Source of the DNA: Amyelois transitella
Lineage: Eukaryota; Arthropoda; Insecta; Lepidoptera; Pyralidae
Direction: 5' to 3'
Assembly (NCBI RefSeq): GCF_032362555.1
Contig: NC_083516.1
Location: forward strand, 2,567,001-2,631,000
DNA length: 64,000 bases
Both the position numbers and the translations under genes were made by a program. The notes beneath the pieces were generated by a model. It was given only the letters and a program-made list of their open reading frames with translations. It was not told the origin of the DNA and ran no database searches. Positions within the stretch are counted from its first letter, which is position 1; each line of letters begins with the position of its first letter. Positions 14,975-64,000 of this stretch are shown here, in pieces.

Positions 14975-15703
14975 TCCAATTTTACTGGCCTTTGAGTGAT
15001 TTAAGCAATCAGCACGGGAAGAGGCATACACCCTAATTTTTTTTGCGCTAGCAGACCAGCATAGAAGCATTTTAATTAGAACTTCCAAGTAATATATTTC
15101 GGCATTCGACCCAGCTGCGTCCCCCCAGGGGAGGAATTTCGATTTTGTCTATCACTATGAGCCTGTGTATAAAGGAGAACCTAACCTAACTTGGGTCATT
15201 ATTAGTTTTTTGCGCGTTGGAAGTACTCATTTCCTTACTCACTTCATACAACATTCACGTAAAGGGCATAGACAGACCAAAACAAAATTAATTTTATTTG
15301 CTGTCGAGTGAACGCTGTAAATGTCTTTAATTTATATATTGCCATAATTAGCGACATGTTAAATCGGGACCTAACAATATTTAATATCGGCATCTAACAA
15401 TATTTTTAAGAACCGTTGCCGCGCGTGACCTTGTCTTCAGACTTTATCGAGTTTCCTGTCCATCCAGATTTGATTGTAAACCTACATAAAACAGAGCTCG
15501 GTACACGCAGCCACGTTGCACTGAGTGTATCGGCGGCACTCGAGTAGATGCCCGCGTCACGCGCAATTAAAAAAGAAAATAAAAGCTAAGAACCGCCATT
15601 CGAAATTCAAAAGTTCGCACACAAAGAGACGCGATCAAAAGAGTATCAAAGTATTTAATTTTTAATTTTGGTATTGGCGCGAAACCAAGAAATTATTTGT
15701 GAA
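14975..15703. other. Region upstream of Methuselah exon 15704
   Basis: Non-repetitive from about 15250. It probably includes the promoter and 5' UTR of the transcript starting with exon 15704, but no clear TATA or initiator was identified. Confidence 0.3.
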
Positions 15704-16147
15704 ATGTATAAAGGTATTTATATACTTTTGATTTTATTTTCGTCTGTTCTCGGAGAGCCGTGTAAGGATAGTCTCACTGTCGATATATCAAATGGTACTT
15801 TCTTCCGCGATGGTTCAGTATTTGACAATGGGGTGAGCTACCCAAGGAGTTTGGTATTTGAAAAAGAATTAGACGGTGAAAAAAGAGCATTAGGTTGTGT
15901 GTGTGAATTGAAGCCATGTTTGAGAAAATGTTGTCCGTTGGGTTCGGTTGTATATCAAAAGAAATGTTTGGAAGATCCTGACTTTGATATAATATTGAAT
16001 AGTGGACTTAATGTGTCATTTATGAACAATTATGAGAAGACTATTGATGTAAGTTCCGGGGTATTTGGATTCCTTCGAACACAACAAAATGGGACACCGT
16101 TTTACTGTCAAGTCTACAAAGAAAGGCGGCCGTGGTATGTACAGAAG
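15704..16147 (+). CDS. Methuselah-like GPCR: first coding exon 1a (N-terminal half of ectodomain)
   Basis: ATG at 15704 opens 148 codons ending at a GTAAGT donor (16147/16148) in phase 0. Residues 1-17 are a signal peptide (ILLILFSSVLG). The rest matches the Methuselah N-terminal ectodomain: Asp-Ile-Ser-x-Gly, Asp-Gly-Ser, a Tyr-containing strand, then the hallmark CVCELKPCLRKCCP. No second ectodomain half, TM exon or in-frame stop follows before the next first exon at 25266. The exon's phase fits the shared exon at 28700 exactly. It could be an alternative first exon of gene A or the remnant of a partly deleted paralogue. The Methuselah family assignment is firm; which transcript it joins is inferred. 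Confidence 0.8.
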
Positions 16148-16196
16148 GTAAGTATTTTTTATTATTTAAAAAACCGATCGGTGTTTAATTTTTTTT

Positions 16197-16328
16197 ACAT
16201 ACATACATAAAATTACGCCAATTTCCCGGAAGGGTAGGCAGAGACTACCTCTTTCCACTTGCCACGATCCCTGCATACTTCCTTTGCTTCATCCACATTC
16301 ATAACTATCTTCATGCAAGCTCGGCGGT
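16197..16328 (-). repeat. LINE family B 3' end
   Basis: ATACATAAAATTACGCCAAT .. CTTCATGCAAGCTCGGCGG, starting 50 bp after the donor of Methuselah exon 15704-16147. Confidence 0.7.
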
Positions 16329-21330: not shown

Positions 21331-22485
21331 GATCCGCATGCCTGCATAACTGTAATTAACTAGGAAATTATTGATCCTCTCCTTTTTCCTGGCGTCAATC
21401 TCAGTTATATCTTCATTTCTACAGAGAAGAGCCATTGTTGCTCCTTTTGATAATGATCCTGGATTGAGTAAGTCAGGTTTTTTCACAAAGCGCATCTCGT
21501 TTGACCTCCGCAATCTTTCCAGGGGAAAATAACCTAGTATATTCGATCATGGCCAAAGCTGCATTAGAGGAATGTATTCCTATTCCTTTAGTCGCCTTTT
21601 ACGACCATGGTAAAAAGTGGAAGTGGGCCTGTTCTAAAGTCCCGGGAACTAAGTAACTTATGCAACACGGCAGAAATTACTGCTTTTATGGAATGCTCTT
21701 ATTTCAGTCAGTTTTTTTTAATTCGCAACCCACCCCGGCTTCGCGATGGTAGTATTTATAATTATTAACTTTCATTAGAAAACCCTCTCTCCAACAGGAA
21801 CAAAATCCGTCCACAAATTTCCAAATACTTAGTGGGACTTTTGAAAATGTATGTAGAAAAATTTATTTTATAATAACTGAACTGAAAGGCTCTTTAATTT
21901 CGTAAATGGACGTGCTTTTTTACCACGACGTGTCCACTCTCTGGGGAAAGATTTTCAGTTTACTGTGAACTTTGTGCATGCTAAAGGATTATTTCACTTT
22001 TTATTACTTGTAGGTATAGACGAGTGAAATGTATTAATTACTTTAATTCATTAAATTATTGGTATGTATATCAAGTATGTATCTAATAAGGTCTAATTAA
22101 ATAACGACTAGAAAGAAATTGTTCTCGTAAGTTTTATTAATTAGAACCCTACTTATTTGATAAATTCACGTATATGAGGTACTCGTATTTATAAATTCTC
22201 GTGTCTAAGAATCGGCCAACATCTATTTTTCATACCTCTTGGTGATAAAGATTGTCCACCCTTAACATATTTTTTAACTAGAAATTACTTAAAACATATT
22301 AATACGGCAAAACAACGTTTGCCGGGACAGCTAGCAACGTGTATATGTTATAGTATCGAGTGAAAGTCAGGTCTCTCGATCCATCCGGTCGTCCATATAG
22401 TACTTATAACCTTGGCAACTAAATGAAAAAACTAAACTTCTAGCTACAAAAATGAGAAACAATTTGATTATATTTTTACCTCTTT

Positions 22486-22681
22486 GTGCCGTTTGGTTTC
22501 CGGCAGAATAGGTTTATAAACTTGGGATTCTTCTCTTTAGCGATAGGCTAGCAACCTGTCACTATTTGAATCTCAATTCTATCATCAAGCCAAAAAGCTG
22601 AACGGAGCCTGTCAGTATATTCAAGACTGTTGGCTCCGTCTACCCGCAAGGGATATAGGCGTGAATATATGTACGTATGTT
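22486..22681 (+). repeat. Interspersed repeat A copy with internal deletion, abutting the CACTG element
   Basis: GTGCCGTTTGGTTTCCGGCA jumps to GAATAGGTTTATAAACTTGG, then continues normally to GGGATATAGGCGTGAATATA. The CACTG-ended transposon begins six bases after its tail. Confidence 0.7.
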
Positions 22682-22686
22682 GATTA

Positions 22687-23815
22687 CACTGGTCAACAAA
22701 AAGAATAAAGTTGGTTGTTTCCTATGAGATTTTTTTTTTTCTGTTTTAAATTGACGCGTATTTATCAAATACGGCAGCCATTTTCTCTAACAGCTTTTGT
22801 TTTTGAGTTATAGCTAACTACCCTCACTTGATATTTTTATTTAGATTTTCGTTTTTTTTCGGGTACTAGAACACATTTTGTTGTCGGTTTCGATATGGCT
22901 TCCTCAAGAAGATGTTGTCTGCTTAATCCAGATTGTTTTTGCTATATTTGTGGTGAATATGTATTAAAAAAATATCGAAAACCTATATCGGACTTTGTGA
23001 AAACTGCGTATCATCAGTATTTTAAAATAAAATTGTGTAATCAGGACAAGCCATGGGTTCCTCATATTGTTTGCCAGAAGTGTGTAGTATGTCTACGGTT
23101 GTGGTCCAGTGGAAAAAGAGATGGAACAATGTTCGAAACACCAATGATTTGGCGAGAACCTCAAAACCATCATAACGACTGCTACTTTTGCGTTGTGAAA
23201 ATAAACGGAATCAATCCTGGAAATCGAAGTAAGTGGCCTTATCCCAACTTAGCTTCTGCTCAACGACCTCAATTAAGATCACGAGAGGTACAACCCAGCA
23301 CATCTAAATCTTCTGATGATCCAAATATTTGTGAATCCGAACGAAATGAACGAAATATATCAAGTGAAGATTCTGATCCAGACTACAAATTCAACCTTTC
23401 AGAACCTCAACCATTCAATCAGAAAGAATTGTATGACCTATTTCCTGAAAATTTGGGTGATTTTAGTGAGGAGCAGGGTGAAAGATTTCACCAAGATCTT
23501 CGGACAATGGAAGGGCGATATCAGGGAAGATGGGACTCACATATGATGGCGGACTACTGCTGGAGTTTGAAACGAGATCTACCTAACGTCGTTCATGCAA
23601 GAAAATCATATAAAAGATCATTTGATAGTGTTTAATAGATATTTTGTTGAAATATGTATTAGTTTTTTGTCTTTATTTGGTCGAAATTATGAAACTGTAT
23701 ATTTCAAAAAGTAAAGCTGTTGGCAATCTCACAGTATTTTTTTCATAGTCAGGACCATAGAAATAACCAATAAGAGAGAAAAAAATGAAGGAAACCAGAA
23801 TCGTGTTGACCAGTG
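22687..23815 (+). mobile_element. 1129-bp CACTG-ended DNA transposon (CACTA/EnSpm-like) with 3-bp TTA target duplication
   Basis: Left end CACTGGTCAACA (22687-22698) is perfectly inverted at the right end as TGTTGACCAGTG (23804-23815). TTA flanks both sides (22684-22686 and 23816-23818). CACTR termini with a 3-bp duplication are the classic signature of CACTA/EnSpm elements, hence the inferred superfamily. It encloses one + strand ORF. It is inserted just after the tail of an interspersed repeat copy ending near 22681. Confidence 0.75.
22895..23635 (+). CDS. Transposon-borne Cys-rich ORF, apparently internally deleted
   Basis: 246 codons, ATG to TAA, inside the CACTG-ended element. The N-terminus is Cys-rich (CCLLNPDCFCYICGEYVL..HIVCQKCVVCLRLW, then WREPQNHHNDCYFCVV) and suggests zinc binding. 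A Ser-rich linker follows (PSTSKSSDD). Then FNQKELYDL runs straight into FPENLGDFSEEQGERFHQD and MMADYCWSLKRD. From memory these N- and C-terminal motifs belong to a widespread, unnamed multi-copy arthropod/cnidarian ORF in which several hundred residues separate them. If so, the middle is missing here. The biochemical function is unknown. The reading frame is open; whether it is expressed is not known. Confidence 0.7.
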   Translation: MASSRRCCLLNPDCFCYICGEYVLKKYRKPISDFVKTAYHQYFKIKLCNQDKPWVPHIVCQKCVVCLRLWSSGKRDGTMFETPMIWREPQNHHNDCYFCVVKINGINPGNRSKWPYPNLASAQRPQLRSREVQPSTSKSSDDPNICESERNERNISSEDSDPDYKFNLSEPQPFNQKELYDLFPENLGDFSEEQGERFHQDLRTMEGRYQGRWDSHMMADYCWSLKRDLPNVVHARKSYKRSFDSV

Positions 23816-23818
23816 TTA

Positions 23819-25265
23819 TCTTTTGTGTGGAAAAATATTTATACAAAACTGATGCATAAACCAATTCACGTAAAAATACCATCTAGGTCTTTATAAATAA
23901 TTACAAAAATAAAAAAACTACATAATCATTATTATTGTTAACGACTTGCGTACGAACGGGCTCAATCAAGTCGCCAAACGGAACAAGTTCATCGGTCTAC
24001 CTGACGTGGACAGAGGCAGACCAGTTTTCTGTAGTAGCATCACGTATTCCGCACTCGATACACGTATACGTGAGACGTGACATTCTCGCGAGTTTTGTAA
24101 ACAGTGGTAGTGGTTCTTTGAATCGTGATTTTAAATTTGGAAACTGTCATTTTTGGACCTCTCGGTTACTTTTTTTAAACTTAATTAATTTGATTGTCTA
24201 TTGATTTTAAACAATGAATTTGGAGTTTGATTTACTTTTAAGAACATTTTCCCTGAAAAATAATACTGAGAAATTATTTCCGAGAATTTAATGTTTAGAG
24301 CATTTTATAAAATAATATATCTACTATTTTTTGTATTTAAGTTCGATATAACCATGATTGCTATAGTTTCGCATTTTTAAGGTGTCCTAAAAGCCCTACT
24401 GAATAAAAGTCAAATTTAATATCATCGTTTTAAAAATTAGTTCGGCCATTAAAAAACGGAACCAAAATAATGAACACGCCTCTCCTGAAGAATGCCGGTT
24501 TAATATAAATTAGAAAATAGGTCAAGTATTCTGGGTAAAGAATTGCCAGCGAAATTTTAAAATAACATCAAATTTTTTGAGCAGGCTTAATTTGGTCAAC
24601 TAATATGATTGTTCAAGTTGTTACTTTCAAATTTTATAAATTTATTTTAAGTAGCCTTGGGTACACTCTATGAAAGTGATAATAATAATACTTGAACTTA
24701 CTTTAAGTTATAATATAACAACATTATGATGCAATTAATACAATATAAAAAATCTAAAGCTCCTTTTTTGACTGCTTTGGGTTGGAATATTTTAATAATA
24801 TCATTGTGAAACTGATATTACGAGTTTTAAAATATTTGCAATATTCTTAATCATTATATTTCATGACAATATTTTAGCAACTATTTCCTTCAACTTTATC
24901 TTAAACATGCAAGATAGATATCAAAAGCAGTATTGTTGTTTATCAATAGATAATAATTATTCGTAACAAATGATATGGTGATTCCTGTTACTATGACTCA
25001 GAAACCGGTTTAGTGTGAAGAAAACTTCGTATTGCATGCAATTCAAGTCTGCGGCTGGACATCTATAATTAACTTAATCTTTAACAAATAATTAAAAGAA
25101 GAAAAAAATCCATGGCCGAATGTAACCCATTCGGAATTCCCCACTGAGTAACTTATGTAACTCGCGAATTTCCAAATGGTACAAAAATGACAGCGATTTA
25201 AGGTAAATTGTTTACAGTTATTACTCTAGCAGAAATCAGTGAACGGAACGATGAATTAAAAAAAC
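23819..25265. other. Region upstream of Methuselah exon 25266
   Basis: A less AT-rich patch at 23935-24125 stands out but no gene is recognised in it. The rest is featureless and may hold the promoter of gene A. Confidence 0.35.
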
Positions 25266-28200
25266 ATGCAAGCTACAGTGACTTTGGTGTTAGCTCTGAT
25301 CTCAAGGACTTTAGCAACTGGTGTTAAAGTTTGTGACAATAACAGTTCTATAGATATAAGTCAAGGAATAAAAGGTGTAGACGGTTCTATAACATATGAT
25401 GGTGTGACTTATCATAAAAGTGAATATTATTACGATGAAAATACAAATGTTGAAAGAGGATGTATTTGTAGTAAGAAGATCTGTGTGCAGAAGTGCTGTC
25501 CAGACGGGTATTCGTATTTTAAAAAGACATCAAAGGGGATATGTGTGAACGACAGTGCTGTATTTGATCCCCCAATTTGGGATCACTTCAGGGTTGTAGA
25601 AGATGCTCATGCTGGTGATTTGTTCCATATTGTGGCAGGAAAACCGTCGTGCCAAGATCCAGAAGTTAGGGTTCGAGTTGGACAAGTATTTAAGCATGTA
25701 CACATGACTGTTGTGAGTATTGTTCTTTTTCTTATTTAACAATATGTTTCAACCTGTGACACCATTATCTTTGATCTGTCTATAAATAGTGTTATGCAGG
25801 TTTTTATTTTGGCGCACTATGAAACAATGTAATAAAGTCGCCTGATCGACATCATCGCCCCTTGGAAACATTTGATGGACAGCGTTTACTTTTCTTTAGT
25901 CATTCACAGAAAGGCATGAAAGTGCCGCTTTTAATTTAACCAGATTCAATCAATACCTACAGATCTAGCGGGAAAACACTTGAGCACTTTATAAGTGGTA
26001 ATTAATTATCCACCTTGTTCTGAATTGCCCCAAAGTTTCATTTTATAACAAGATATACATATTATCTAGGTACTTCCTTAAATTGCCGTGAATTCCAAGT
26101 TTTTGTAAACTCCGTTATTAATTGACATTTTGTGTGTCACAACAAAAACTAAATTGCTTTGTCTCCTAAATGACGTCAAAAAATCATCATCATCATCAAT
26201 GACCAGGAAATGCGATTTCACCTTTAATTTTCCATTACTAAACGGTCTTTAATTGGTGTGATGCCACAGGATGTTTTTAACCTCTTTAACACTGCGTCAG
26301 TAGTACATAATCTGAACATACATTTATACATGTCTCTATTCTTTAGGGAGTACATAGCGAGCCAACAGTTGCTAAAATGGAATGATAGAATTATCATGTT
26401 GCTATGTACGAACGTAACTTGATCAAATCGGAGACATTCTGGCGAATAGACGAGTACATTTAACTGAAGAACATGAAGAAAGTTATGAATGAAAATGAAG
26501 CGAAAAAGATATGCAGGGATCATAGCCAGCGGATAGATGGTATCTGTACCCTATCGAAGTCTTTCAAGACTGTTGGCTCTGACTACCCCGCAAGGGATAT
26601 AGAAGTAATTATATGTATGTTCTAACTGATGACATATTGGTATGAATATAGGATTTTTGGCGCAAAATATATAACCTGCATCTGGTTTTCGAAACTAGTA
26701 GGTACATAATCAATCAAAGTATTAGTGAGAGTGCTGAATGACAGCTCAAATAAATCTTGTTCAAGTAGATGTTCAATATCACCAAATACCTATGTTTCGA
26801 CAGTTTAAGATATATCTTTTCTTTGCTTGGAACAGCACTGTTATGTTTTTATCCGAGGTGGGGTAGGCAGAACCTCAGTCTGTTGAACAATATCTAACAT
26901 TATATCAGCGAGCAACAAACTAAATTTCTTTGATTACAATTTTTTGTCTAATTTTTTAAATTTATGTTTTTTCCTTATCACAAATTTAAATTTTAAACCA
27001 AATAGGATTATTTTATTTTATAATAAGAAGTATTTAAATATATTTTATTAAAATATTAAAGTTACTTTCATGTTCGATTATAAAACTGATTAAAAAAAAA
27101 GTGATGTGACAATAAAAACCCGCCTAGGAATAACCTGAGATTACTTCATAATTACTATTAATTACTTGCAACGTGCACTAGACGAATTAAGTCATTAACA
27201 CTATTGCGTTGTTATAGCGTCGTAAAGGTAACTGAATGAACCGGTAAAAGGATACAATAAAAAGTGATAAGGTGCACTGGTTCGAATCCCAGCGCGGTTA
27301 TGTCTAAATTAACTCTTTCCTAAATTACTTAAGGAGGTACCTACATACCTAATAAATGGTATAAACAAAGCGATGATCCTAGAATAAAAACAAACATCAT
27401 TAGATCACTTTCATTAACTTGGGATTTTTGAAAGGCTATAATTTCACTATCTTTGAATCTCAATTCCATATTAAAGCATTCTATCTAAATGAGGCTTTCG
27501 GCTCGGCTTAAGAAAGTAAGCCTACTAGAAAATAATGACATTTAAATTAATAGAAACAATTATATTTAGCTAATATTTGGATATTTGTTAAAATATGCTA
27601 ATATAAGTAAAATTTATGTTTTGTCAATGATATATATGTAGTGTTCCTGGTGACTTAAAGAGTTATAAACATTAATAGTGTACAAAAAAGGCTTGTAATA
27701 TTTACCTTGGACGACTCATTTGTTTACGATATTTTTAAAATCCTATGACCATTGACCATGGTCAGTAAATTTTCACCCACACGTTTTTCAAGGTTCATTC
27801 GTGTGTCATTTATTTGCACGTGAGTTTTCAATAATATCAAGTACTAAATTACTTCGTGCATTTTTCTAAGATAATGTAACCAACAAAGTGTTCGTAATTA
27901 CAAATTCAGTTCAAATCTTTGATTATTTCATGTTTACTTATAAATATATAGTAGATACTATACTTGAAACTTTATATATTTAAATAGAGTTAAGTTTTTA
28001 TCAGGTTCTTTAAGTAAGTACTTGTTTAAAAGTCGAGAATAAAGGTCCATATACAACAATAGGATTTTGATAAGCAAAAAGTTTATAATATGGCCTTTGT
28101 TGAAATGAAACTCTATTTTTATAAAAATAGAGGTTAATAAATAGTCTGGTAGCGAATAAAAACATTGTGTGTGCCAGCTGGTTCTATTCCCGCGCAGATT

Positions 28201-34200: not shown

Positions 34201-37200
34201 CCCGAAATTCAAGTCTATAAATTAAAATTCACGCTTACCGTTAATTTATAAAAAAGCACAGATCTAAGAATAGTTTTTTGTTTTGCTTTGCACGATTAAC
34301 ATAATCAACAAAAACTGACATGGACGGCACGCACATAACTACTTCATTGAGGAATTCAGACAAGTAATAACCAAATTCATATCTTATTTTAACATAAGGT
34401 ATATCCGGGGGCACGGAAGTTTCCCCGCCAAAACGAATCAAGGGCAATACTTACCTTTTCTTGATAGGTTTTGTCATTTTTTGATACGGATATTTTAAAC
34501 TAGCTGTGCCCGCGACTTCGTCCGCGTGAAATAGTTATTTTGGGCATCATTGAAACCCTCAAGGATGAATAATTTTTCCCGTTTTTTCACATTTTCCATT
34601 ATTTCTTTGCTCCTTATAGTTGCAGTGTGATGTTATATGGCCTAAAGCCTTCCTCGATGAATGGTCTATTCAACGCAAAAAGAATTTCAATTCGAACCAG
34701 TAGTTCCTGAAATTAGCGCGTTCAAACAAACAAACTCTTCAGCTTTATAATATTAGTATAGATAGAGAATAAGTACCTAGTAGGTACTTTCAAGCAGCAG
34801 ATGTATTCTTATATTGATTAGCTTTTTAGGAAAAATATATATCCGCTTTACTAAAGAAACACGGATTGAAGATATTGATGGATACAATTTTGTAAACAAA
34901 TATTTTGCTCGATGAGGCTTGATTTAGTACCTATTTCTGAAGGTAATAATTGATAAATTTACATTAAGATAATAGTTGTATTTCGGGGCGTAAATTTCTT
35001 ACAACGGATAAATAAAAGAATTACATACTTAAACAGTTCTCAGTATTTTTAGTAAATATCTAAAAGTTTTCAATTCTAAGTTATTCTCAACGCAAGTATT
35101 CATGCGCTAGCTTACGAACCGGTTTAGAAATGCCCTGGTTTACCCATGAGTTTCCTTATATTAAATCCCACGCCGGTTGTTGTTTTTTAGCGTTTTATTA
35201 AGTGAATATTAAGTGAATAAAATGGAATGAACAATTTTTTAAATTGTTATTCTATTTATCAAAACATATTGACTTACTTGACTTTAGGTCCTATGTCCCC
35301 TAGCTGGGGCAGAGGGCATCCACAGTGCGTCGCCATCCCGCTCGGTCTTGAGCTTCGCGTTTTATTTCGCTCCAAGTCTTCCCTAGATTCTTCACCTCTG
35401 CGATGATTGTCCGCCGCCAGGTCTGTTTAGGGCGGCCACGTTTACGCTTTCCTTGGGAATTCCAGTCTAGGGCTTGCCTCGGTATGTGTTCGGGGTCCCT
35501 TCGGGGCGTGTGGCCGATCCAGTTCCATTTGCGGCGTTTGATCTGCTGGTCGATCGGAGTCTCACCGCAGCGTTCCCACAGGTCTACGTTGGAGATTTTC
35601 TCAGGCCAGTAAACACCGATAATACGGCGAAGACAGCGGTTAATGACAACTTGGAGACGATGCGAGATGTCTTTAGTGGCCATCCACGTCTCACACCTAT
35701 ACAGCAAAACGGTTTTCACATAATTATGACCGGAATATTTTGAGCTTAACTCTCCTAGTCAGTTTCCGTGATTGTCATACAGGACGGAGCTGTGCGAAGG
35801 TTGCTCTTGCCTTGGCGATTCTCGAAGTGATGTCCTCTTCGGTCCCTCCAGTTTCCGACACTACGCTACCGAGGTAGGTGAACTTGTGGACTCTCTCCAC
35901 AACCTCTGTGCCGATAAGCAATGGTAGCCGATAGCCAGTTGCCCCGCACCTCATTTCGTTCGTGCATAGCTCGTCGACTTTATACGATTGACATTTTTCA
36001 GAAAAAAAAATTGTTTATACTACATACCACAAAAAGTGCAATTTATTGCATCAAGACAAGTCACACACATTGATCTCCGTTAAAACCACAAAAGTCCCTG
36101 TTAACCACCTTGACTTACGATGATGTTGGTGTACCGCACAGTAGGTAAATATTTACTTGACTTGACCAAATTCTTGAACAACATACGAGTCCAAAATAAC
36201 TAAAGTACAGATATTTACCGTTGAATCATTAGTCATCCAATTGAGAGTATAGATATTAGATATATACCGCATATTTGGTAAATATTTACTTGTCCTTACA
36301 AACACGCAAACCCCATTGCACATTTATAATTAAAGTATAGAAAGATGTTTAGGACTTTTCTTTGTACTTAAATATCATATATATGTATATACGGGTCCTC
36401 AGATATTGCACTAACCCTGGCGAAAGAGCTAGGTAGAGAATTTAACATAGCTTTCACAAAGTGCACAGATAAATTCTGAGACAAATAAAATACATCCTTT
36501 TATATAAAGTAATATCTGTTTTCTCTATATTGATCGTGACGTGAGTCAGCGTTGCATTGGAAACTACCAGCAACTGCTAAAATGTGACTAAAGTAGGTAA
36601 ATAATAAATATCTAGAACATATTTACACTGTGAGCCACAAACGACTATGCCCTTAAAGAAGAAAACGTTTTCGTTCAAAGTCACTTAATTTTTTTTAATA
36701 TTTTGTTATCACGTTATCATATTATCTAATTCCAAGAATAAATATACCTTATTTTCTAATAGGTATTTAAGTTTCTTGAAAACTTAGCGCTTTCTTAGTA
36801 TTTCCCGGAATTCTTACTAAGAAATGGATTACATTAGTTACACGCGGATGGAGCTTGAGGGAAAAATTTAGTTCATCTTCATGAATTTTTCATATCTTTG
36901 TTTATATCTACTTTAATTTGTCATTATCTTGTCAACTTAAGGCTCTTTCTATCCCATCAACACTTAATGTATGTTTATCTATGTTTGCTACTCATCAAAG
37001 TGTAACAAGACAACACAGTACATGAACATGATCATGGTTTTTACCCGATCGAGTCGTCCTTGTACTGACCACAATCCAAGATTTAAAAGGTCAAATAGAG
37101 TGCCTACTGTGTGACCCTCATGACCTTGTTGACCATGAAACGTAACAATATAGGACCATGATGGAAAATAATCAAAATACATCATTGTGTGTGGGTAAAA

Positions 37201-53420: not shown

Positions 53421-56400
53421 ATGTCGGCCGCAATTGACGAAAGGTGTGTAAATTGTTGTTCAGTAAAATGAGCAAAAATCTGGAACCTACCTTTATTTTA
53501 CTCAATGTTTACGGTGTTTTTCAGGGTAACTGACGAAGTAGAGGCTTTGGAAGCTATTCTGTTGGACGATGTCGTCGTCAAGAGAGAGGACGATGTTCCT
53601 AAAAGCATAGAAACGGTGGTCCACCCTTCTACAGGGGATGATGTCGATCAGCAATTCGTTTGTGTGACCCTGGAGGTCAAGTTGACATCCAAATATCCTG
53701 ATAACAGTCCTGAGGTGACCCTTAGGAATCCTAGAGGCCTCGATGATGAAACACTGGCCAATATTAATTCACAAGTGAAGAAAAAATTAAAGGAATGTTT
53801 GGGGCAACCAGTAGTGTTTGAGCTTATTGAGGTGAGTTCCTGCTTTATCAATACTACAAGGCTGACCTGGAAAATATTCATATATACATATATATTCACC
53901 TCTATATCCCTTGCGGGCTAGACAGAGCTAGCTGAAATGAAAATATATTGAAAAAATACAAACTGTCTATAATATTTTTTCACTGCCTTACCTGCCAGTA
54001 CTTGATTGATATTAATTCCAAAAAGATTAATTTATAAGAAAATATATTTAAAAATCTGCTGAGACTTGCAATACATGAGTATTACTAGTCTAAGCAGCTG
54101 ACAACTTCATATTGATAAAAAAAAGCAAAATAAGTTCAAAATAATTGATGGTGATAAAAATAAATATATCTGCTTTCAGCTGATACGTGAAAGCCTGACA
54201 GAGAGCAACCTGCCCAGCGGTCAGTGCGTCATCTGCCTCTACGGCTTCACAGAGGGCGACATTTTCATCAAGACACAATGCTACCACCACTTTCACAGCC
54301 ACTGCCTAGCAAGCCATCTGATAGCCGGCAAGAAGTATTACCAGGAGGAAATGGATAAGCTGCCCAATTGGCAACAAATGCAAGCACCACCATATCAGGT
54401 ATGTTCATGTGAGGTGACTACTTATTTTATTTGGATTCTTCCTATAATGTTTATGAATTGTCATTGATGGTGAGCTGGTGACAAAGTATTTCTTGCATGT
54501 AAAATAAGTGTAAAATCTTTAATAGTAAAGAGTTAAAAAGTATAGTCTCTGCCTACCCCTTCGGGAAAAAGATGTGATTTTATGTATGTATGTTATAATG
54601 GAACTCCAGGCCATGAATAATAATTGCTGATACAACTAAAGATGTGCAAAGATGAAAAAGACATTTGTATTAATTTTTTTTTGTTACTTATACAACTACC
54701 CTTTATAAAAGTGGCTTGAGGAAAATTATTTCCACCTCATTATCTTTGAAATTAATAAAACATACTGAAATTCACACATAAACATGAGAAGGAGGTAAAC
54801 AAGTTCTCTACATATATACAGCTTTTATATCTCACAGACATATTTGTTGGTAATGTGGTAAAATAACTTGTGGAGTTAAATAAAATAGTTTTGAATTTTG
54901 AAATTTTTGAATGTAAAATCTAAGTATGCAGAGATCATGGCAAGTGGAAAGAGGTAGTCTCTGCCTACCCCTCCGGGAAAGAGGCGTGATTTTATGTATG
55001 TATGTAAAATCTAATAAGACTCATTATTTTCAGCAAACATGCCCCGTGTGCCGCTGCCCCATGGCTTGCGATGTTGAAGCCCTGAAGAGAGCCCCACTGC
55101 CCGTGCAATCCATAACCGCTAAGCCCTTCTCCTTGACAGCCGAGTTGAAGGTTGGTTAAAGATTTTCAATATTTATTTACCAATTAAAAGTTTTAGTTTA
55201 TTTATTATTAGCCTAAAATTTTAAGTAGATAAATTGTCAGCTTAAATGGTTAGGTCATATAGAGAATGAATGAAAGTAGGTTGACTAAGAGAATATACAA
55301 GGACAGTGTTAGAGAATGTTGGGAGGGAGAGACCTAAACAAACATACCTTGATCAAATCAGAGATATCCTGGCCTGAATTGGTTTATGTATTTCTTTTAT
55401 AACCATGTGCTATTTCTTGTAACTGTAAATTTCTGTGCAATAAAGATATTACAAACAAACAAAAAACAAAACAAACAAGTCTGGCGAGATTACTTAAAAC
55501 AAAAATAGATTGCATGAAGAGAGTAATACATTTTTAAAGAGACTAAAAAGAATATCTACTAATATCTCAATTAATACCAGTTATAAAGAAACTGTGTCGT
55601 CTGGTTTCCAGTTTAGAATAGATCCACTCCATATTTTTTCCATGGATGTTGTAAAAGGCGACTAAGGGATATTCTTATAAACTTGGGATTCCTCTTGTTG
55701 GCGATGGACTGTTGACTGTTGACTCTGTCCACCCCGCAAGGGAAATACCAGACGACTATATGTATGTAGTTATAAAGAAACTATAAATATGGAATACTGC
55801 TTCTTCATACATTCTTCTTCTGTATTTCAGTCATATTCTTCTAAAATATAGTTTATTTTATTCAGGCATTACAAACTAAAATGGCATCGCTGCTAGCGCA
55901 TCAGATAGCCAAAGGGGGCGTGGTGGGAATGGGAGACACGGGCCCCCCACCACTGACCATCACATCGCCGTCTGACAATGATGAGGTGGGTATCATAAAC
56001 TATTTATTTATATATGAACTGCAAGGAAAAACTTAGATGAAAATAAAACTTTGTATAAAATAAATAGATAAACTCTTTTTTGCACCAAAAGAAAAAGAAA
56101 AAAAGAAGTTATGAGGTATAAAGACGGACTTATCGCTAAAGTAATATCTTTCAGTCAACATTAGGGTGGCAGAAATCTAAAGAATAGAAAGGCGATTAAT
56201 ACAAGTAATGTAACAGTTTAAGGGCACTACTTATTTTTAAAGAATCTTCCAGTTGAACCACAATAAGAAAATTGATAGTTTGTGTATTATACAGGGTGAC
56301 TTTTAATTCAACTGCATAAATTTAACTGTTAAGTTTACTCATCTAAAGGATATTTAAAAACGTTAATAAAAAAATATCAGTTCAAATTAAGTGCGAAAAA

Positions 56401-60899: not shown

Positions 60900-62221
60900 T
60901 ACTCTGTCAAGAAAGTAGCAGGAAAAGATCAATAATACACAAACTGTTTGTTATTCATCCAAATTTATTTTATCACCTTCAAAATATGCTCCTTTAGAAA
61001 CGATACACTTACGCCAACGAATAATCCAATCATCAAAACATTTTTTAAACGCTGTTTCCGGAATTGAGGTCAGTTCTCGCCGCGAATTCTCTTTTATGTC
61101 TTCTACCGATTGAAAACGGGTGCCACGAAGTGGTAATTTGAGTTTAGGAAAAAGAAAAAAGTCGGCTGGAGCCATATCTGGTGAATATGGTGGTTGCTCG
61201 ATGGTATTTGTTGAGTGTTTGGTTAAAAATTCGTTCACAATGATGGCCTTGTGCGAAGGTGCATTATCAAGGTGCAAAATCCAAGAATTTTCTTTCCACA
61301 AATCTGGCCTTTTTCGTCGGATTTGCTCTCTTAAACGCCGCATAACACTCAAATAATATTCCTTATTTACCGTTTGACCTTCCGGCAAGAATTCCGAGTG
61401 CACAACACCGCGATAGTCAAAGAAAACAGTCAACATGACTTTGACTTTTGAACGACTTTGGCGTGGTTTTTTCGGTTTCGGTTCAGTTGGAAGGCGCCAC
61501 TCCGAAGCTTGTTGACTAGTTTGCATGTCAAACTCGTAAACCCACGTCTCGTCACCAGTAACAATGCGTTTCATGAATGTTGGGTCGGAATTGACTCGTT
61601 CTAGCATGTCCTCAGCGACTCTCATGCGATTGAGTTTTTGAAAAAAATTCAGGTCTTTTGGGACTAGCCGAGCGGCAACATGTTTCATACCCAAATTATT
61701 AGTTAAAATGGTACGGATCGACTCGTGAGATACAGAAAGTTCGGTGGCTATCTCTCTCAAAGTTGAATGAGGATTTTCAGTCACTATTTCCTTCACTTTT
61801 GCGATGTTAACTTCAGTTGCAGACGTTGATGGCCTACCAGAGCGGGGCAAATCTTCCATCACATCTCGACCGCTTTTGAACGCTTTGTACCACTCATAAG
61901 CACGAGTTTTTGATAAAGTCGATTCACCGTAAGCCTTCTGTAACATTTTCAGTGACTCCGAACACGATATTCCATTGGCAATGCAAAATTTAAGACAAAC
62001 TCTTTGTTCGATGTTTTTATCCATTATGAAATTAGCAATACACACTAGATATGATATAACTAAAAATAGCACTGTATTTAATGTAAACAACAGATGCAAC
62101 TCAAACTCCGCGCCAAAATGGAAAACAGTTGTGCCAATCTAACAACAACAAAAAAAACAAAAATTTGAATTTGGAACCATAAATAAATAATCCATTCCCG
62201 ATACTTTTCTGACTGAATGTA
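60900..62221 (-). mobile_element. Full-length mariner element with imperfect terminal repeats
   Basis: The outer ends carry related inverted repeats: left CTGTCAAGAAAGTAGCAGGAA near 60903-60925, and the complement of 62193-62216 reads CAGTCAGAAAAGTATCGGGAA. They match at 16 of 21 positions. TA dinucleotides sit at both edges, as expected of a TA target duplication. Total length is about 1.3 kb, normal for mariner. Exact ends are uncertain by 2-3 bases. Confidence 0.75.
60951..62024 (-). CDS. mariner transposase, intact ORF
   Basis: The open frame begins at 62099 but the natural start is the Met at 62024 (MDKNIEQRVC), giving 357 residues, close to the usual 345-355 of mariner transposases. 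The N-terminal half has helix-turn-helix DNA-binding segments (HSTLREIATELSVSHESI). The catalytic triad is D158 (VTGDETWV), D253 (HLDNAPSH) and D288 (SPDMAPADFF), with 34 residues between the last two. That is the mariner D,D34D signature. No stop or frameshift interrupts it, so it could encode an active cut-and-paste transposase or be very recently inactivated. Confidence 0.93.
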   Translation of the reverse strand: MDKNIEQRVCLKFCIANGISCSESLKMLQKAYGESTLSKTRAYEWYKAFKSGRDVMEDLPRSGRPSTSATEVNIAKVKEIVTENPHSTLREIATELSVSHESIRTILTNNLGMKHVAARLVPKDLNFFQKLNRMRVAEDMLERVNSDPTFMKRIVTGDETWVYEFDMQTSQQASEWRLPTEPKPKKPRQSRSKVKVMLTVFFDYRGVVHSEFLPEGQTVNKEYYLSVMRRLREQIRRKRPDLWKENSWILHLDNAPSHKAIIVNEFLTKHSTNTIEQPPYSPDMAPADFFLFPKLKLPLRGTRFQSVEDIKENSRRELTSIPETAFKKCFDDWIIRWRKCIVSKGAYFEGDKINLDE

Positions 62222-62800: not shown

Positions 62801-63009
62801 TATATCTGTATAGAACTAAGAATTTAAAAATATGATGGACAGGAGAGGGATGCTTAAATGATTAGCAAAAGTACAGGCGCAACAAATGCCAATACACTGG
62901 CTTATTATACATAAAATCTTTTATTGTTTTTCCTGCCTTGTTATACTTCACAATAGAACTCCGATGTGAGACGTTGTCTATTAAATTGCCTTATTTATAT
63001 TCATTGTTA

Positions 63010-63417
63010 ATGGCTTATTCAATAAAACAGTTTTTATTCTTGCTGATTATAATACAAAACCAGTGTTTTAGTGAAAAAGTTAAGTGGTGTATTAACAGCG
63101 ATTATGTAGTCGACGGGCACATTATTGATAAGAAGAGTTGTAAAAATCAACCCTGCGTAATAAGCACTTGTCCTTCAGGACAGATGAACTATAATCGCGC
63201 ATGTATAAGAATGGATAGCAAATCAGTAAATTTTTCGGAAATTCTTACGCTATTTACACTTATAAATGGCGAGCCAATAAAAAGCTTGAAGACTTTCAAT
63301 AGTTTCCAAGTAGTAACTTACAAAGATAAAACTGTCCATTTGAAAGAGAATAACAATTGTACTAATTCTAATTTTTATACGATTGGGAAAGGCGAAATAG
63401 ATGGGAATTTCTTAGAT
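63010..63417 (+). CDS. Methuselah-like GPCR: first coding exon of a third gene, runs off the window
   Basis: ATG at 63010 opens 136 codons ending at a GTAAGT donor (63417/63418) in phase 0, as in the other Methuselah first exons. The start of the ORF is a signal peptide (FLFLLIIIQNQCFS). Next come a shortened Cys module, Trp-Cys-Ile-Asn..CKNQPCVISTCPSGQ, and a Cys-Ile-Arg segment. The usual Cys-Cys-Pro is Thr-Cys-Pro here. No second ectodomain exon is visible in the remaining 580 bp, so the rest of the gene, if it exists, lies to the right. It may instead be an orphan exon of the same cluster. Confidence 0.7.
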
Positions 63418-64000
63418 GTAAGTTTTTTCATTTATAAGTTTAACAAAAAGTTGCTAGTGCTACAAAATAAAAACGGGTCTAATGCCTAAACCCTAAAATT
63501 CAAAATTATTAATAGTACTAGTTACTCCAATGTGTAAGAACTTCCCCAAATTGTCCTTAAAATGAAATTTGTCTATGTTTGGTATTGGCTGGCAAACGCG
63601 AGAGCGTTTTACTGTAAGACCATGTATACTTAACATAAGGAAAAGTTAAATAACAATGTTCGTATCAAAGGTATCTGAATTTTTATTGACCAATAATTAT
63701 TGAAAAACCCGAGAAATCTCCTTTTTGTGGCGTGTCAAAAATTATGCACAATTTTTTAAACTGAATTTTTTAATCTGTACCATTTGAATGGTCCTTTTTC
63801 AAAAAGAAAAGAACAAACATCGTACTTATGAGTAGGCTATACTGGATAATTTGTAGTCAATTATGTATAATGATTAGCATTGATATGATACCAGCCACCA
63901 AAATAAATAAATAATTGAATATAAAATTGTAAGTACGTTACAAGGAAGGAAAAAAAGCTATAATAATAATACCCTTAAATCAATAGGCCCTGCGGCAGGG
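63418..64000. other. Start of the intron after Methuselah exon 63010
   Basis: No exon, repeat family or ORF recognised before the window ends. Confidence 0.45.

Follow-up and report, generated by a model that had tools for sequence, protein, structure and literature searches.

A Chapaev3-Like Transposon Derivative in Amyelois transitella That Retains an In-Frame Remnant of Its Transposase

Results

The 64,000-nucleotide stretch of Amyelois transitella contig NC_083516.1 analyzed here (the window) contains a transposon derivative of 1,129 bp on its plus strand (22687..23815). It ends in perfect 12-bp inverted repeats, CACTGGTCAACA on the left (22687..22698, plus) and TGTTGACCAGTG on the right (23804..23815, plus), and is flanked by an unstranded TTA target-site duplication (22684..22686, in the context A-TTA-CACTG, and 23816..23818), as a first-pass annotation of the window had described. 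Between the repeats lies a 246-aa open reading frame (ORF; 22895..23635, plus), an in-frame join of the N-terminal 182 and C-terminal 64 codons of a 562-aa parent ORF. Its N-terminal part carries a ZAD-like zinc domain (residues 11–76, with C16-x2-C19 and C60-x2-C63; 22925..23122, plus), a resemblance that stays under the Pfam cut-off, and a second His/Cys cluster (residues 92–99, with H92, C96, and C99; 23168..23191, plus) that is identical in all 42 aligned sequences. At the deletion junction, GACCTA/TTTCC (23440..23441, plus), 948 bp of the parent are gone. The C-terminal piece that was kept (23441..23632, plus) includes SEEQGERFHQD, in which E193 and E196 correspond to E509 and E512 of the parent and may, from their position, provide the third catalytic acid.

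Judged locally, the evidence for a mobile element is good, without being overwhelming: the interval 22001–24500 holds one pair of perfect 12-bp inverted repeats with a 3-bp duplication at a spacing of 800–1500 bp, and 2000 order-1 resamples yielded 8 such pairs. The reality of the element is settled because copies with its ends recur elsewhere in the genome. A DNA search of the assembly of this species (327 Mb in 33 contigs, with 40 of the 66 candidates scored) identified five short copies of about 1.13 kb at 99% identity (the window copy and L009–L012), four longer copies of 2,046–2,078 bp (L013–L016), four sister derivatives of 1,243–1,304 bp (L017–L020), and one copy that keeps its right end only (L021). 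The full-length parents, the short copies, and the four other derivatives share the same ends, so that the tie drawn in the first-pass annotation between the Cys-rich, EEQGERFHQD-containing protein family and a DNA transposon is borne out, with the longer relatives found inside the same termini. The pattern TWA plus end plus AAAG was counted 11 times genome-wide, as against 0 for the control, and each occurrence coincides with a copy found by similarity.

Identical TAA or TTA triplets flank 11 of the 13 two-ended copies; the triplets are mismatched in L015 (ATT/TTG) and L016 (TTA/ATA). All 11 copies with matching duplications sit in ATTAT or ATAAT (ATWAT), corresponding to insertion between A and T. 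A search with the joined flanks of these 11 insertions gave 41 matches, of which 40 crossed the join between the L017 flanks without a break, at 99–100% identity, showing that L017 entered repeated sequence and duplicated TAA; as 40 of 6833 candidates were scored, the ten other insertions were hardly tested. The L017 flanks, on contig C32, belong to a young, high-copy repeat, represented by 40 or more copies of 99–100% identity over 180 bp. A second flank search, directed at the five short copies, found no empty sites among its 51 matches: ten were the copies' own flanks and 41 belonged to the repeat to the left of the window copy, a few of the latter extending up to 9 bases across the junction.

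The first-pass annotation had noted that, relative to the protein family, the middle of the ORF was missing, and the full-length copies in the same genome contain it. The ORF of L015, the sole uninterrupted full-length copy found, comprises 562 codons, and the short copies lack 948 bp, or exactly 316 codons, the junction showing exact homology over 1 bp and an imperfect GACC[T/A]A homology. Their ORF remains open in three of five cases; a stop interrupts it in L009, and L012 carries both a stop and a 7-bp deletion. The copies of 1.24–1.30 kb share a separate 775-bp deletion with ATTT at the junction, by which the frame was lost. Eight deletion events were met, a set that is no exhaustive census and leaves out five lone end sites: two have in-frame junctions (the window type and L029), and six further ones are the 1.3-kb type, L022–L025, L030/L031, L079, L080, and L081, with the frame at birth uncertain for the decayed events L022–L025, L030/L031, L079, and L081. 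The idea that deletions spare the N-terminal domain arose from the first five events, which broke at about residues 126–182, and was dropped when L079, L080, and L081 proved to break at about residues 29, 63, and 69. L022–L025 form a decayed derivative family of 1.30–1.33 kb with ends CACTAGTTTACA and TWA duplications.

To which family does the element belong? CACTA transposons have CACT ends and a 3-bp duplication, and the transposase domain of EnSpm/CACTA elements is of the TNP2 type. The element shares with EnSpm/CACTA the CACT ends, the 3-bp duplication, and the Chapaev-Mirage-CACTA (CMC) group; its full-length ORF, however, matched no Pfam family at E≤1, and the best structural neighbours of the fold of a relative (P0121) are RAG1 and HzTransib instead. 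Sequence searches of solved structures with queries A2 (E≤1) and A3 (E≤10) returned no matches, and none of the papers searched mentions the EEQGERFHQD motif. Residues D260, D314, and E509/E512 (L015 numbering) are identical in 42 of 42 aligned sequences, and their position suggests that they are the catalytic residues. The long protein is a DDE transposase akin to those of the Transib/RAG1 assemblage. One source (PMC4411706) unites Chapaev3 with Transib, from which RAG1 derives, in a single superfamily, and mentions an N-terminal Chapa zinc domain. According to a second source (PMC4079192), Chapaev3 of the CMC group, with the Merrow, Garfield, and Conan families, has CAC..GTG ends, TWA duplications from insertion between A and T, a transposase encoded by a single exon in most cases, and internal-deletion derivatives described as MITEs (miniature inverted-repeat transposable elements), generally under 600 bp. 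The element under study shows the 5'-CAC..GTG-3' termini, the TWA duplication between A and T (in 11 of 13 two-ended copies and at the empty sites of L017), and an origin by internal deletion; unlike the MITEs described in that source, it measures 1.13 kb and holds an in-frame protein. These characters, judged against described features of the family, fit Chapaev3 of the CMC group over CACTA proper. The label "CACTA-like" given at first pass is supported as far as a DNA transposon is concerned, and is refined to Chapaev3-like within the CMC group.

Related frames occur within this genome and beyond it. A second, Chapaev3-like family, with 555-aa frames at 17 places with equal or nearly equal scores, uses the same 12-bp end CACTGGTCAACA, as seen in L036 (759–2851) and L043; of 60 end sites, 24 are paired at places of this family (12 pairs, spaced by about 2.1 kb), and 23 belong to the family of the window. 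L080 is an internal-deletion derivative of the 555-aa family, at 99.8–100% identity. These observations suggest recent activity of the family. Another Chapaev3-like family has open 594-aa frames at 16 places (L028 and 15 others), most with equal scores; terminal-inverted-repeat scripts did not find its ends in L027, L028, and L035. The best-scoring named relatives (P0001–P0005) come from the spider Trichonephila clavipes and show 77–85% identity over 68–83% of the window ORF, the top one reaching 85% over 74%; P0002 matches the L015 ORF at 83% over 73%. This similarity may point to horizontal transfer.

Several features accompany the element in the window. The DNA immediately to its left (about 22597–22680) is part of a dispersed repeat, with 41 listed matches at 78–91% identity, most of which end at or near 22680. 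Methuselah_N ORFs lie on either side (15668–16210, E 2.9e-10; 25266–25739, E 1.2e-4), and an ORF at 62938–63489 resembles both by eye, with no Pfam match at E≤0.01. A protein search with the ORF at 25266 yielded 28 candidates, none of which passed. An uninterrupted mariner-type transposase ORF occupies 60951–62099 on the minus strand (Pfam Transposase_1, E 9.8e-19; HTH_48; DDE_3). Inspection by eye also revealed a reverse-transcriptase fragment at 35300–35719 (minus) and an RWD-like ORF at 53505–53921 (plus). In the wider assembly, contig C33 (15,205 bp) appears by eye to be mitochondrial, with trnQ adjoining a nad2-like frame, and with a further frame, COI-like, that opens RKWLFSTNHKDIG; CCTAA arrays stand at the start of two of the four contigs read. 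Both signs point to Lepidoptera.

Discussion

Our comparison of copies revealed a full-length transposon, an internal-deletion derivative with its frame intact, and a sister derivative with its frame lost. We propose the following model, in which we have high confidence. A full-length Chapaev3-like transposon of about 2.08 kb, encoding a 562-aa transposase in one reading frame, would have lost 948 internal bp, probably because repair that followed an excision was aborted at a short stretch of imperfect homology. The derivative would have kept both ends, and transposase supplied in trans by intact relatives would have carried it to five or more sites, each insertion entering ATWAT and duplicating TWA, with the ORF as a by-product. 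Target choice and duplication can be read directly from the copies, and from the empty sites seen for one sister derivative. Mobilization in trans is inferred because the five sites share one junction and their copies lack the catalytic core. L015 is a candidate source whose present-day activity is uncertain, since it deviates at one residue that is common to all 41 other aligned sequences. Lacking the two core aspartates, the 246-aa protein should be incapable of cutting DNA; if expressed, it could bind the ends or partner the transposase.

The first-pass annotation had left a choice between a deletion derivative that kept its frame and a separate short protein. An in-frame deletion derivative is what the copies show, and the second option finds no support. 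In that reading the 246-aa protein would be a stable, domesticated short host gene with coincidental transposon-like ends, as its open frame and conserved Cys/His positions might suggest; five near-identical copies at unrelated sites, every one with a target duplication, a frame broken in two of the five, and no sign of strong purifying selection make this highly improbable. Less probable still is an intronic nature of the missing middle, with the short copies derived from spliced RNA. The left breakpoint of the parent (CTA/GTAAGAG) does resemble a splice donor, but the right one (CAA/TTTCC) has no AG, so that the junction is not GT-AG; splicing at the nearby TTTAG would add 5 bases and break the frame, and the parent ORF continues through the middle, where the core aspartates lie.

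What is the relevance of the retained frame? Chance retention is most likely, and the alternative is that the stub was kept by analogy to the KP derivative of the Drosophila P element because a protein with a zinc domain at its N-terminus and helices at its C-terminus would block transposition of the full-length family. KP is an internal deletion of 207 aa that binds P elements and represses (PMC4938643). KP and the window stub alike are amplified internal deletions that keep the N-terminus of the transposase, although the P element belongs to another superfamily and the window stub keeps the C-terminus too. This precedent is joined by a deletion that is exactly in frame, by the three short copies that are still open, and by a ZAD-like N-terminal domain that is well modelled (predicted local distance difference test, pLDDT, 91–97 in 10-residue blocks from 11 to 100). 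ZADs are reportedly protein–protein interaction modules, to judge from the title of Jauch et al. (2003). In addition, 9 of 120 relatives listed also join N- and C-terminal parts and lack one aspartate or both, the junctions being different (P0007, P0009, and P0011, from contigs of 1.1–1.9 kb, are examples), but these nine came from a protein search biased to open frames and include some gene predictions. Further points weigh against repression: two in-frame junctions in eight events are at about chance level, and the out-of-frame sister derivative also reached four copies. The five short copies differ within the ORF by seven missense, two stop, and one synonymous substitutions, small numbers that supersede an earlier count over the arms common to 13 copies (five missense, one stop, none synonymous). 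They give P values of 0.22–0.38 under neutrality, 0.0007–0.004 at omega 0.2, and 0.04–0.11 at omega 0.5, so that strong constraint on the stub is disfavoured and mild constraint (omega 0.5) is still compatible. Taken together, we consider a KP-like role improbable.

The Cys/His-rich, conserved N-terminal domain has the C-x2-C..C-x2-C layout in common with the ZAD of insect zinc-finger transcription factors, and weak yet repeated Pfam matches connect the two: zf-AD (PF07776) scores 13.9 bits for the window ORF and 19.8 for the best relative, under the curated cut-off of 28, and ZAD entries are the best structural rows for the domain. Profile comparison by hhalign gave a score of 7.4 (probability 0.3%) with untrimmed profiles; with both trimmed to 74 columns it gave 21.9 (probability 31%), higher than any shuffle, and 20.3 with the two swapped, lower than the best shuffle that kept the Cys positions (21.4). 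One may speculate that the transposase domain and the insect ZAD share ancestry and that nature has provided, in the stub of the window, a protein with a ZAD that can both pair with and poison the transposase, an idea that we hold tentatively and think rather unlikely to be correct.

A widespread ORF unnamed by Pfam thus gains a home: its product is a Chapaev3-like transposase, and the core of the protein is RAG1/Transib-like. The in-frame and out-of-frame derivatives of the same parent, at similar copy numbers, form a natural pair suited to testing the KP-type idea. If the shared ancestry were true, one of the largest families of insect regulators would have its dimerization module in common with a RAG1-like transposase; confirmation of the resemblance to ZAD would inform the question of how the insect ZAD regulators originated.
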